NCBI RefSeq assembly: GCF_007923255.1
Contig: NZ_VOHJ01000001.1
Span: forward strand, 124,001 to 188,000
Source: Vulcaniibacterium thermophilum
Lineage (GTDB): Bacteria; Pseudomonadota; Gammaproteobacteria; Xanthomonadales; Xanthomonadaceae
Reading direction: 5' to 3'
Length of the DNA stretch: 64,000 nt
Positions 27,870-32,671 of the stretch are shown one piece after another. The position numbers and the translations under genes are program-made. The notes under the pieces were generated by a model. The model was given only the letters and a program-made list of their open reading frames with translations, was not told the origin of the DNA and did not search any database. Every line of letters starts with the position of its first letter. The first letter of the stretch is position 1.

Positions 27870-29987
27870 TCAGCGGGGGCGGCGGGCGCCGAGATCGAGG
27901 CGGGCGGTATCGCGAACACGGACCTCGACGCTGCGGGTGGCCGAGGCGTCGTCCAGATACCACGGCAGCGGCAGGTTGTCCGGCAGCACGGTGATCGTGT
28001 GCGTGCCCACCGCCACCCGCGGGAACTCGAAGTTGCCGAGGCTGTCGGTGCGCACCGACCAGCGCCCGTCGAGCACGACGGTGAGGTTCGCCGCCGGCAG
28101 TTCGGCCGCCGAACGCACGCCGTCGTCGTTGTCGTCCAGGAACACGCTGCCGGCGATGCGGCCGTGCGCGGCGTTCGGCGGCCCGCCCAGCACCGCCTGC
28201 GGCCGCCCGGCCTGGCGCTGGAACTGTAGGCTGAGCAGCAGCGCGCGGTCGCGCGGCAGGCGCACGAACGGCTGCTCGTTCGCCAGCGGATCGATGACGA
28301 ACGGCGAACGCTGCGAGCCGCGCGTCTCGTAGTAGGCCGCGGTCAGCGTCAGGTGGCGCGACAGCCGCCAGTTGAGGCCGAGATTGACGTCGTTGCCGCG
28401 CAGCGCCGAGGGGCCGTCGGCATGCGTCCAGCGCGCGCTGCCGTCGAGCGAAAGGGTGTCGGTGAGATCGGCGCTGCCGTAGAACGCGACGCTCGCGGTG
28501 GTCGTCGCGGCCTCGCCCTCGGCGGCCACCGCGCCGTAGGAGGCGCTCAGCGCGAGACGGCGGCCCTGCTGCAGCGGCAGATCCTGGTCGAGGGTCAGCA
28601 GCCAACTGTCGCCGCTGCCTTCGCCGCCGGCCTGATCGAACTGCAGGCGCGTCTGGCCCCAGACGGTGCGCTTGTCGAGGAAGAGCTGCACGCTGTGCGC
28701 CACGTCCGGCGTGCGCCGCAGGTTGACGCTGGCGCCGTAACCGAGCGTGGTGCTGGCCTGGTAGCGCGCGTAGCCGGTGGCGTACCAGCCGTCGAGTCCC
28801 GGGCCCTCGAGCGTGCGCAGGCGGTCGATCCCGGCGGTCCAGTTCCAGCGCGCGTACTGGTAGCTCAGACGGTAGTAGCCGCCGGCGACGTTGTTGTTGA
28901 TCGGCAACGCGCCCCAGGCGAGATCCGGCTCCAACCGGAACAGCCCGGCGTTGTGGCCGAAGCGTCCGCGGCGGTGGGCGTAATCGGCCCAGACGCCGAG
29001 CGCGGAATCGAGTCCGTCGCCGGCGCTGCCGAGCAGGTTCATCTGCAGGGAGGCATCGCCCGACGTGCGCGCCACCGCGGTGTGCAGCGCCCGCGTGCGG
29101 CCGGGCTGCAGCGCCGCCTCGCCGGGCGGCGGCAGCGAACCGTCGGGGTCGGGCACGACGCGGCCGTCGGTGACCAGCGCGGTGGCCGCGCCGCTCCACA
29201 GCGGCGAGAAGCGCCATTGCGCGCCGAGGGTGCCGACCTGCCCGGAGGCGACGTCGAAGCCGACCACGCGGGTGCCGTCGTACCGCCCGGCGCGTCCGAA
29301 CGCGGCCTGCAGCTCGGTTCCGGTGTCCGGGTTGCGCCAGCCGCTGGCGATGCCGGCGAAGCTGACGGTCGGCAGGAAGAAGCGGTACTGGTCGCGCAGC
29401 ATCGGCACGGTCGGCGTGTTGAGCACGCCGAGGCCGTTGTCGACCCGCCAGCCGCCGTCGAGCGGCAGATTGCGCTGCCACAGGGTCGCGCTGCCGCCGA
29501 CGCCGGTGCTGCCGGGGCGCTCGCTGCGGAAGGCGGTGAAGTCGAAGGAGAAGCTGCCGAGCGCGGCGGTCTCCCAGAACGCGCCGCCACGCAGGCCGTA
29601 TTCGTCGTACGAGGCGTCGCCGCGCTGGTTGCGGCTGACGAGGACTTCGGCCCGCTGGCTGCGCGGCAGGCCGCCGCTGTCCTCCGGGGCGTCCTCCTCG
29701 GGCGCCAGCGGCGGCAGTTGCGCGGGCGAAAGGATGCGGTCGCGGTAAGGTTCCGCGTCGCGCGCGGCGGGACGCCCGCCCGCCGGCGCCACGGCCGGAG
29801 GCAGTTCGCGCTGGGCCGCCGGCCCGCCCAGCGTCAGCACCGCCGCGCGGGTGAGGACGTTGCCTTCCCCGTCCTCGCGCTCGTCGGTTGCCGCCGGGGT
29901 CGGCGTCCGGGCCCAGGTCGCGCCGGCGAGGATGGCCAGGATCGCCGCGCTCAGCCGGCGGGCGCGCGGCGCGCCGGAGCCGCTCAT
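27870..29987 (-). CDS. usher-like outer-membrane beta-barrel protein with C-terminal SdrD/prealbumin-like domain
   Basis: A 705-residue exported protein (signal near [15 protein letters not shown]). After a low-complexity segment it shows long alternating beta strands typical of a large barrel (for example [56 protein letters not shown]). Residues ~610-705 form an Ig/SdrD-like domain with a calcium-like loop ([18 protein letters not shown]) and [19 protein letters not shown]. It overlaps a PapD-like chaperone gene by ATGA, hence the usher proposal. It is shorter than classical ushers (about 800+ residues) and no PapC N-terminal domain is recognisable by eye; a porin-like protein remains possible. 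Confidence 0.6.
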
Positions 29988-30766
29988 CCCGGAAACGTGC
30001 CTTCGACGTCCACCGCGCCGGCCGACGTCTCCAGGCGGCCCTTCAGCCGGACCGGGAAGCGCAGCGTCGGCGCCGGGGCGTCGGGACGGTCGGCTTGCGG
30101 GACCAGCGGGATCACGCGGGTCTCCCCCGGCAGGATCGGAAGGCCGTTGGGCGCGAACGCGTAGCGCGTGCCGCCGGCGTCCTCGCCTTCGACCAGGCCG
30201 TCCAGGCGGCCGTGGGCGTTGCCGTCGTTGCGCACCTCGATCGCGGGCACCTCGCGGCCCTCCACCGTCGCCGTGCGCGTTCCCATCACCGTCAGCCTGG
30301 GCGCGGCGCCGCCGACGGCGAGGTAGACGATCACTCCGATCCGCCCGGCGATCGGCACGGTGGAGCCGCGCACCGCCTGCGGGTCGCCCTCCAGCATCAG
30401 CGCGAAGCGGCATTCGCCGACCGGCGCGTCGGCCGGCACGGCGACCTCGAACCGGTAGCGTCGCTTGCCGTTGGCCGGCAGGTGCACCTCGGCCGCCTCC
30501 AGGCCGACCCACGGCCGGCAACTGCCGGGCGCCAGCGCGTAGTCGAATTCCGCGCTGGCGTCGGCGCGCAGGGTCCAGTCGGCGGTGCGGATGCCCAGCC
30601 GCGCCGGCTGGCTGGAGACGTTGGTGATCTCCAGCACGCTGCGGAAGGTCTCGCCCGGCTTTGTCGACGCCTCGAAGCGGGGCGGCGAGACCAGCACGGA
30701 GAACTCCTGCGCCGCGGCGGGCAGCGCGCAGAGAGCGAGAGCGAGCAGGGCGGACAGGCGGATCAC
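29984..30766 (-). CDS. periplasmic PapD-like pilus chaperone
   Basis: A 260-residue secreted protein; the signal peptide [18 protein letters not shown] is followed by the PapD-like first strand [20 protein letters not shown] and then [19 protein letters not shown], matching the Ig fold of fimbrial chaperones. The central segment [20 protein letters not shown] corresponds to the F1-G1 region, and a second Ig domain follows. The start is GTG (30764-30766), overlapping the upstream stop (GTGA). It is expected to fold the subunits encoded upstream and pass them to the usher-like protein, with which it is coupled by ATGA. Confidence 0.75.
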
Positions 30767-31218
30767 GGGGTATCGACGTCGATTTCGAAGCGGAACTCGA
30801 CCGCCTCCGTGCGGAACAGGCGGCTGCCGTCGGCTTTCAGCGTGAGCAGCAGCACGTCCTCGATCTCGTCGGTCGCGATCGGGCCGGCGTAGACCAGCGT
30901 GCGCTGGCCGCTGCGCACGGTGCCGGGCAGCAGCCGGCCATGCGTGGTCCAGGACGCCGTCAGCGCATCGAACGCCTGCGGCGGCAACGTCAGGTAGATG
31001 CGGCCCTCCCGCCCGCGCCACGGCGACACGTCCAGCCGCGCCACCACGGTGAGCTGGCCGATCACCGCATTGCTGCCGCGCCCGGGCACCGGATCCTCCC
31101 AGCGCGTGCGCACGAGCGGGCTCTGCACATGGCTGCGGCTGTCGTCGACCGGGAACGTGGACGCGGCGGTCGCGGGGCCGGCAGCCAGCAGGAGCGCAAG
31201 CGGAAGGAAGCGGCTCAT
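30763..31218 (-). CDS. small secreted protein of the pilus-like locus, function unknown
   Basis: A 151-residue protein with a signal peptide (MSRFLPLALLLAAGPATAAS). The mature part is beta-rich ([42 protein letters not shown]) and lacks cysteine. It overlaps its neighbours on both sides by 4 bp (ATGA and GTGA), so it belongs to the same operon. A minor subunit or adaptor is plausible; the family is not recognised. Confidence 0.7.
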   Translation of the reverse strand: MSRFLPLALLLAAGPATAASTFPVDDSRSHVQSPLVRTRWEDPVPGRGSNAVIGQLTVVARLDVSPWRGREGRIYLTLPPQAFDALTASWTTHGRLLPGTVRSGQRTLVYAGPIATDEIEDVLLLTLKADGSRLFRTEAVEFRFEIDVDTP

Positions 31219-31853
31219 GGCGCGGTCAGCGTGTAGGTCGCACGCCCGGTGTAGGTGCCCGCCGGCACGACCGCGTCGTTGGCGTAGAAGAAGCTCATGC
31301 AGCTCTCGCGCCACGAGTTGTCTCCGAACGTCGCGAGCGTCTGCACGCCGCCGTTGAAGCTCCCGGCCGGCACAGGCTGCGCCGTTCCGGCGCCGTCACT
31401 GTTGCCGCTGGTGGTCCAGCGGATCTGGCCGATCGGGATGGCGTCGCCGAGGCCGTTGCCGAGCGAGGGCGGCGTCGTCACCGTAAGCGTCGCTGTCCCC
31501 GACTCCCGCCTCGGCAGCCGGTAGAAAAACCCGACGTAGACCTGGTTGGGATTGCAGAACAGGTAGTTGTCCCAGTGGCTGATCTGCTGCGGGGTTCCGC
31601 CATTGACGGCCATCGCCAGGTCGGTCCCATTGCCGACCTGGGCGGCCGGGATCGCCAGCGATACCATGTTGACCGTGGTGTTCGCTTGCAGCGTGTCCTC
31701 GTCGCTGCTGTACGGCGTGCCGTTGTAGCCACCGGTGCCCACGCGCAGATAGATCGCGCGCGGCCCGGGCGAGATGGTGACGGTGAACGCGTTCGCCAGG
31801 CACGGCAGCGCCAGCGCGGTCACCAGCAACGCAGGCCGCACGCGGCGGAGCAT
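31215..31853 (-). CDS. pilin-like secreted subunit B
   Basis: A 212-residue protein with a signal peptide (LLVTALALPCLANA|FTV). It shares with the upstream subunit the blocks YLRVG near the N-terminus, IPAAQVGNGT in the middle and the C-terminal strand PAGTYTGRATYT, so the two are paralogues. Two cysteines in the mature protein (LFCNPN and RESCMS) could form a disulfide, unlike subunit A. ATG at 31851-31853 follows a GAGGA Shine-Dalgarno. It is separated from subunit A by a terminator-like hairpin. Confidence 0.72.
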   Translation of the reverse strand: MLRRVRPALLVTALALPCLANAFTVTISPGPRAIYLRVGTGGYNGTPYSSDEDTLQANTTVNMVSLAIPAAQVGNGTDLAMAVNGGTPQQISHWDNYLFCNPNQVYVGFFYRLPRRESGTATLTVTTPPSLGNGLGDAIPIGQIRWTTSGNSDGAGTAQPVPAGSFNGGVQTLATFGDNSWRESCMSFFYANDAVVPAGTYTGRATYTLTAP

Positions 31854-31871
31854 CGGGACGTCCTCGCGAGA

Positions 31872-31903
31872 AAAGGCCGCCGGCATGGGACCGGCGGCCT
31901 TCA
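31872..31903 (-). terminator. intra-operon terminator/attenuator after pilin-like subunit A
   Basis: AAGGCCGCCGG (31873-31883) and CCGGCGGCCTT (31891-31901) form a perfect 11-bp stem with a 7-base loop. On the minus strand it is followed by TTTTC. Its place just after the first subunit stop suggests partial termination, giving more of subunit A than of subunit B, chaperone and usher-like protein. Confidence 0.75.
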
Positions 31904-31907
31904 CGAC

Positions 31908-32528
31908 TTACGGCATCGACGCGGTGTAGGTCACGCGGCCGTTCTGGGTGTTCACGCCGCCGTAAGTACCGGGGGCGACGACCGCCGCGTTGCTGTAAGT
32001 GTACGTCCACTGCGCGCCGCGGTTGATGACGCGGCCGGACGTCGGGGTCAGGTTGAGGCTGGTGGTCGTGCCGTCGGCCAGGGCCGGATGCATGAGCTGC
32101 TCGCTGACACCCGCCAGGCTGGCCACCGAGGTGGCGATCGCGGCGTAGGAGATCGTGTCGCCCGCACCGTTGCTGAGCGCGCCGGTGGTGGTGGACGAGA
32201 AGGTGATCGCGCCGCCGTTGCCGATCAGGCGGGCGGTGACGGTGCCGTTGCCGAGGTCGCCGGAAGCGGCGGTGGCCGCGACCGCGGTGCCGTTGCCCAC
32301 CTGCGCGGCCGGCACGTTGAAGTCGATCAGGTTGACCGCGGTGTTGTTGGCCATGGCGTTACCGGCGCCCACGCGCAGGTAGAGCACGCGCGGCACGGTG
32401 ATCTGGAAGTCGAGCCGCGCATTGGCGGTCAGGGCGCCGTTGCCGGTGACGAAGTTGGACTCGGCATGGGCGAGGAACGGAGCGGCCAGCAGAGCGGCCG
32501 CCAGCAGAGACTTCTGGAAAACGCGCAT
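31908..32528 (-). CDS. pilin-like secreted subunit A
   Basis: A 206-residue exported protein; the signal peptide MRVFQKSLLAAALLAAPFLA ends at AHA|ES. The mature part has no cysteine and is Thr/Ala/Asn/Gly-rich with alternating strands (LDFQITVPRVLYLRVGAG, VNLIDFNVPAAQVGNGTAV), ending in PGTYGGVNTQNGRVTYTASM. The final strand resembles the donor-strand-accepting end of chaperone-usher pilins. It is first in the operon behind a sigma70 promoter with a CRP/Clp site and followed by an attenuator, as expected of a major structural subunit. No similarity to FimA/CsuA-B can be claimed by eye. Confidence 0.72.
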   Translation of the reverse strand: MRVFQKSLLAAALLAAPFLAHAESNFVTGNGALTANARLDFQITVPRVLYLRVGAGNAMANNTAVNLIDFNVPAAQVGNGTAVAATAASGDLGNGTVTARLIGNGGAITFSSTTTGALSNGAGDTISYAAIATSVASLAGVSEQLMHPALADGTTTSLNLTPTSGRVINRGAQWTYTYSNAAVVAPGTYGGVNTQNGRVTYTASMP

Positions 32529-32642: not shown

Positions 32643-32671
32643 AATCTAAAAGGACGTGATTGGCGTGTCAA
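32643..32671 (-). promoter_or_regulatory. sigma70 promoter of the pilus-like operon
   Basis: On the minus strand a perfect -35 TTGACA (32671-32666), a 17-bp spacer and -10 TAGATT (32648-32643). The start point would be near 32636, giving a leader of about 108 nt before subunit A. Confidence 0.75.

Follow-up and report, generated by a model that had tools for sequence, protein, structure and literature searches.

A conserved five-gene operon of Vulcaniibacterium thermophilum that probably encodes a chaperone-usher-type fibre pathway with a minimal usher

Between rpsB and map in Vulcaniibacterium thermophilum lie five genes for exported proteins, and the question they raise is whether together they assemble a surface fibre and, if so, by which pathway. 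The genes occupy positions 27870-32528 of the 64,000-nucleotide stretch analysed here (contig NZ_VOHJ01000001.1, positions 124,001 to 188,000), referred to below as the window. Chaperone-usher operons are recognised by the usher profile PF00577. The present operon probably encodes a chaperone-usher-type fibre pathway that has a minimal usher and belongs to none of the classical, archaic and alternative types; from the evidence below we infer usher activity, donor-strand exchange, the fibre itself and the role of every subunit. The genes are as follows.

31908..32528, minus strand: SubA, 206 residues, exported; probable major fibre subunit (pilin), paralogue of SubB
31215..31853, minus strand: SubB, 212 residues, ATG start at 31853, exported; second subunit
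30763..31218, minus strand: P151, 151 residues, exported accessory protein; candidate minor subunit, adaptor or initiator
29984..30766, minus strand: Chap, 260 residues, GTG start; PapD-like periplasmic chaperone with two immunoglobulin-like (Ig) domains
27870..29987, minus strand: Barrel, 705 residues; predicted outer-membrane beta-barrel, proposed as a minimal usher from its adjacency to and co-occurrence with Chap

All five open reading frames begin with a signal-peptide-like N-terminus and form one minus-strand run, as a preliminary description of the locus had stated. That description also had the genes joined by 4-bp overlaps, which were found at three of the four junctions (SubB/P151 ATGA, P151/Chap GTGA, Chap/Barrel ATGA), whereas SubA and SubB do not overlap and are spaced 54 bp apart. 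No Pfam or NCBIfam family matched any of the five proteins, the sole exception being a weak C-terminal domain in Barrel, and sequence searches of solved structures returned nothing beyond this domain. The locus had been called one of unrecognised type, and none of the Pfam models for archaic, alternative or classical systems matched; no description of the operon was found in the open-access literature.

Is the five-gene set more than an accident of one genome? A protein search for Barrel in 398 genomes of the order (Xanthomonadales) returned 18 full-length barrels, including the window's own, all in one family, and two further barrels came from a genome collection, one of them labelled Lysobacter sp. 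The survey of gene order that the preliminary description had proposed showed that the order SubA-SubB-P151-Chap-Barrel, on a single strand, was kept in all 19 other loci. When 369 Gammaproteobacteria were searched by profile, full barrels turned up in 12 more genomes, spread over many families. Chap was present in 13 of the 13 full-barrel genomes of this set (Fisher p about 5e-23), and a search for Chap in the same 369 genomes gave 14 strong matches: 13 were the barrel genomes and the only one without a barrel was a genome 55% complete. Barrel and Chap were adjacent in every distant locus having both, and all barrel loci that retain the C-terminal domain had Chap and subunits alongside. Extra SubA-like genes occurred in some distant loci; P151, present in 19/19 near loci, was absent from L084 and L089. 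In plasmid searches no relatives of the operon turned up. The five-gene set is real and lineage-wide, not a one-off or a product of chance.

Related loci lie at several chromosomal sites. Few adjoin rpsB, tsf or map and the majority lie elsewhere, so the rpsB/map neighbourhood is incidental and uninformative on function. The G+C content of the operon (0.70-0.77) is the same as that of its flanks, and the earlier wording of a locus inserted beside ribosomal genes is corrected accordingly.

The searches also brought up some more distant proteins. At L156:7114-8835 a gene for a chaperone-like protein (E 4e-13 to Chap) stands beside one subunit-like gene ending VTYTIAIP, with no barrel recognised near it. 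Another divergent chaperone-usher-like locus, L157:4256-8409, encodes a subunit of 180 residues, a chaperone of 261 residues with a weak relationship to Chap, and a usher-like protein of 881 residues that has SdrD/carboxypeptidase-like domains at its C-terminus and does not match PF00577. The chaperone-like proteins L099-L102 (e.g. L099:6717-7754), from another class of the phylum, are two-Ig proteins weakly matching WxLIP (PF06030) and Chap; they were considered as members and rejected, with no barrel or subunits alongside.

No Pfam model matches Chap. Its AlphaFold2 model, built from three sequences, has a predicted local distance difference test score (pLDDT) of 82.6 and consists of two Ig-like domains; confidence is low in a loop at residues 129-140. 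A Foldseek search of the PDB with this model gave CfaA as the best match, with WxLIP, CsuC and EcpB close behind, and VIA-align placed WxLIP first, then EcpB, CfaA and CsuC. Pilus chaperones made up most of the PDB matches. Profile comparisons from single sequences told nothing or came back empty for FimD, EcpC, FimC and EcpA, and gave 6% for EcpB; hence deeper family profiles were used. A profile of 34 Chap sequences matched the PapD-family profile at 97.8% (E 8.8e-13) over 209 columns spanning both domains, with a reversed control of 0.1%. Chap is thereby confirmed as a PapD-like chaperone, as the preliminary description had it, with two Ig domains.

Alignment through the PapD-family profile places EcpB Arg89 on Chap R120 (30 arginines and 2 lysines among 34 sequences), EcpB Arg148 on R187, which is invariant (34/34), and FimC Arg8 on R30. 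Among the features of non-classical chaperones, Arg89 of EcpB has been called the most characteristic, and Arg89 and Arg148 anchor the subunit (PMC4654587). On this alignment R30, R120 and R187 are likely to be the arginines that anchor the subunit carboxylate. In the same alignment EcpB Tyr169 falls on no matching Chap residue.

The structural matches bring in a different partner system, in which Chap would be a surface-retained binder of SubA and SubB, as WxLIP is for WxL proteins. WxLIP of Enterococcus is indeed the top VIA-align match (Z 13.4, root-mean-square deviation 7.0, 225 aligned), and remote alphaproteobacterial-type relatives weakly match PF06030. However, the WxLIP system belongs to Gram-positive surfaces, the remote relatives that match PF06030 have no barrel or subunits alongside, and sequence profiles link Chap end to end with pilus chaperones, which makes this explanation far-fetched.

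SubA and SubB are the proposed clients of Chap. The two are paralogues (profile-profile 99.6%, E 1.4e-23) and both end in a GtY-x-g-x-VTYTxxxP strand, in agreement with the early recognition of two related subunits with a common C-terminal strand; relatives of SubA mostly end in ...GtY-g-VTYTAxxP. The C-terminus falls at an identical alignment column in 69 of the 69 subunit relatives (SubA 36/36, SubB 33/33), as would be expected if the chaperone clamps the free C-terminus. Near the mature N-terminus of both proteins hydrophobic residues alternate in a manner that may, by analogy, correspond to donor strands. Close relatives of SubB share an invariant cysteine pair. No Pfam pilin family, including SCPU (PF05229), was found for SubA or SubB; their profile alignment with SCPU pilins covers the last 17 residues only (31%), and the GtY-x-x-VTYT strand resembles its SCPU counterpart. 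For P151, the profiles show a weak link (57%) to the C-terminal part of SubB.

The remaining question is whether Barrel is the usher. Three parts of the protein bear on it.

29730..29747, minus strand: [YW]-x-D-x-phi-phi box, YRDRIL, Barrel residues 81-86; proposed chaperone-docking site
28176..29663, minus strand: Barrel body, residues 109-604, alternating strands, placed from conservation and a low-confidence model
27870..28175, minus strand: C-terminal SdrD_B/CarboxypepD_reg-like domain of Barrel; profile match to the region of usher C-terminal domain 1 (CTD1)

The 705-residue protein is predicted to be an outer-membrane barrel from its strand pattern and conservation. It is, as first described, short and without a PapC N-terminal domain: it matches neither PF00577 nor PF13954, the globular usher N-terminal domain (NTD), and a low-complexity tail carrying the box precedes the first strand. 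For the second usher C-terminal domain (CTD2) there is no PF13953 match, and Barrel ends after its CTD1-like domain. PF00577 has no match anywhere in the genome, which leaves no other known usher available. The SdrD-like C-terminal domain reported earlier is real, though sub-threshold in Pfam (SdrD_B E 0.009, CarboxypepD_reg E 2e-5). A Barrel family profile from 37 relatives matched classical and archaic ushers at 96.1% (E 2.9e-9) over the barrel end and the C-terminal domain, while the controls gave 25% for reversed ushers and 0.7% for OprD porins. The C-terminal domain alone matched the usher CTD1 region at 87.6% (E 3.5e-6; reversed 0.1%), and because the profile signal sits in this domain, it is regarded as the counterpart of usher CTD1. 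Of the outcomes named beforehand as refuting the preliminary description, none was seen: the Ig-fold chaperone was found, and no porin match was seen with the OprD profile or in Pfam, the other porin families having been tested through Pfam alone. FimD as the top Foldseek match of the Barrel model was discarded, with TM-scores near 0.2 at pLDDT 41.

All 34 chaperone-linked barrels have the box, located in the N-terminal tail ahead of the barrel; 32 were counted by pattern, and YLDQYI in L081 and YTDQYM in L083 were read by eye. None of the three orphan barrels (L086-L088), whose genomes lack Chap, has the box, and none has the C-terminal domain. About 60% of the contact between NTD and chaperone in classical ushers comes from the N-terminal tail (PMC9452303), so a tail motif could conceivably dock the chaperone alone.

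The orphan barrel-body relatives are found at L086:6616-7932, L087:6681-8366 and L088:150-1703, in two genomes near ispA-like and dxs-like genes. At the N-terminus of some distant barrels (L077:7220-10024, L081:6895-9216 and L083:3198-5948) are one or two FimV/LysM-like repeats (PGENIFRLARLFFP...), which perhaps anchor these barrels to the cell wall.

Such relatives raise the possibility that the barrel came from elsewhere. Barrel could be a pore of separate origin, dedicated to anchoring or export, with Chap and the subunits forming a non-fibrous surface coat or a secreted complex which Barrel would export or retain at the surface, and the lack of detectable usher homology in the barrel body, the absence of a globular NTD and CTD2, the orphan barrels without any chaperone and the FimV/LysM-like repeats of a few distant barrels would all fit. 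This explanation is nevertheless unlikely, given the match of the C-terminal domain to the usher CTD1 region, the strict co-occurrence and adjacency of Barrel with a PapD-like chaperone, and the lack of both box and C-terminal domain in the orphans. A barrel of non-usher descent could also have given rise to a fibre pathway: a separate pore, a PapD-like chaperone and donor-strand subunits would then make up a convergent second export platform, a possibility we entertain tentatively. Export of a fibre with a linear motif for docking and a single C-terminal domain, as that platform would require, is conceivable to the same modest degree.

In the preferred reading, a chaperone-usher-type pathway with a minimal usher, Chap would bind SubA and SubB in the periplasm and donate its G1 strand, its conserved arginines clamping the fixed C-terminal carboxylate of the subunits. 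Barrel would be the minimal usher, the short box-bearing N-terminal tail standing in for the globular NTD and the [YW]-x-D-x-phi-phi box docking chaperone-subunit complexes. The subunits would polymerise by donor-strand exchange and traverse the barrel, with the one CTD1-like domain as the handover site. In this scheme SubA probably serves as the major pilin and SubB as a minor or tip subunit, with P151 as an accessory part.

Several observations weigh against this reading. For the earlier proposal that Barrel acts as the usher, the profile match to ushers is confined to the C-terminal domain; the barrel body alone gave 38% against ushers and 15% against reversed ushers, which is not clearly above control, and the Barrel profile did not match alpha-ushers (6.8%). 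The AlphaFold2 model of Barrel has a pLDDT of 40.8, from which strand number and plug are not derivable. In Chap, the classical Lys112 aligns to no matching residue, and the strand-D1 proline that is invariant in the superfamily (EcpB Pro60) falls on A91; P85, six residues away, is proline in 33 of the 34 sequences. Barrel and Chap lie on opposite strands in many distant loci, in several of them tail to tail. The incomplete Ig fold of SubA and SubB is putative, and this reading does not account for P151.

Could the operon instead be a strongly diverged member of the alternative (alpha; CFA/I or E. coli common pilus type) or archaic family? The nearest solved folds of Chap are CfaA, CsuC and EcpB, and the non-classical anchoring arginines are retained. 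Against such membership, no TcfC, CooC_C, PF00577 or SCPU match was found in any member scanned, and the Barrel profile misses alpha-ushers although alpha-ushers themselves match classical ushers over 724 columns (99.7%), so that this origin appears very unlikely. The operon was filed under no named class because its proposed usher matches neither PF00577 nor the globular NTD and has no CTD2 match.

Two further elements suggest how the operon may be expressed.

32643..32671, minus strand: sigma-70-like promoter TTGACA-17-TAGATT, upstream of SubA
31871..31899, minus strand: GC-rich hairpin GGCCGCCGG...CCGGCGGCC followed by TTTT, in the SubA/SubB gap; possible attenuator

Two promoter-like sites were found in the region compared with 0.2 expected, and the sigma-70-like one precedes SubA. 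The SubA/SubB gap is the only sizeable gap in most loci, and in this operon it contains the sole hairpin. Its hairpin has a z of -4.56 in the window, and 15 of 17 loci have a z below -1.5; the gap hairpins of relatives share no sequence. With a hairpin just 3' of its gene, SubA would be raised relative to the remaining genes.

A minimal usher, if Barrel is one, would show which parts of FimD and PapC, namely the globular NTD and CTD2, are dispensable, and would put the handover model of pilus assembly directly to the test. A widespread class free of PF00577 stays unannotated, and pilus counts for many Gammaproteobacteria would therefore be too low.

Compared with known systems, the operon shares some features with each and differs in others. 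The alpha systems (CFA/I and the E. coli common pilus, with CfaA or EcpB and EcpC) have about the same two-Ig chaperone fold, Chap keeps arginines at the EcpB Arg89 and Arg148 positions, and pilin, chaperone and pore genes are linked in both; Barrel, however, lacks TcfC and CooC_C domains as well as an alpha-usher profile match, and SubA and SubB do not match EcpA. With the archaic systems (Csu type, SCPU) the operon shares a chaperone fold like that of CsuC and a subunit C-terminal strand resembling the SCPU motif, whereas its subunits are not SCPU by Pfam and Barrel lacks PF00577. In comparison with the classical systems (FimC/FimD, PapD/PapC), Chap R30 lies at the anchoring Arg8 and the C-terminal domain of Barrel aligns to CTD1, while Barrel is about 170 residues shorter than FimD (878 residues) and has no globular NTD or CTD2, and Lys112 is unmatched. 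The WxLIP/WxL system of Gram-positives differs in having no outer membrane, no barrel and other partner proteins, and shares with Chap the two-domain Ig arrangement.

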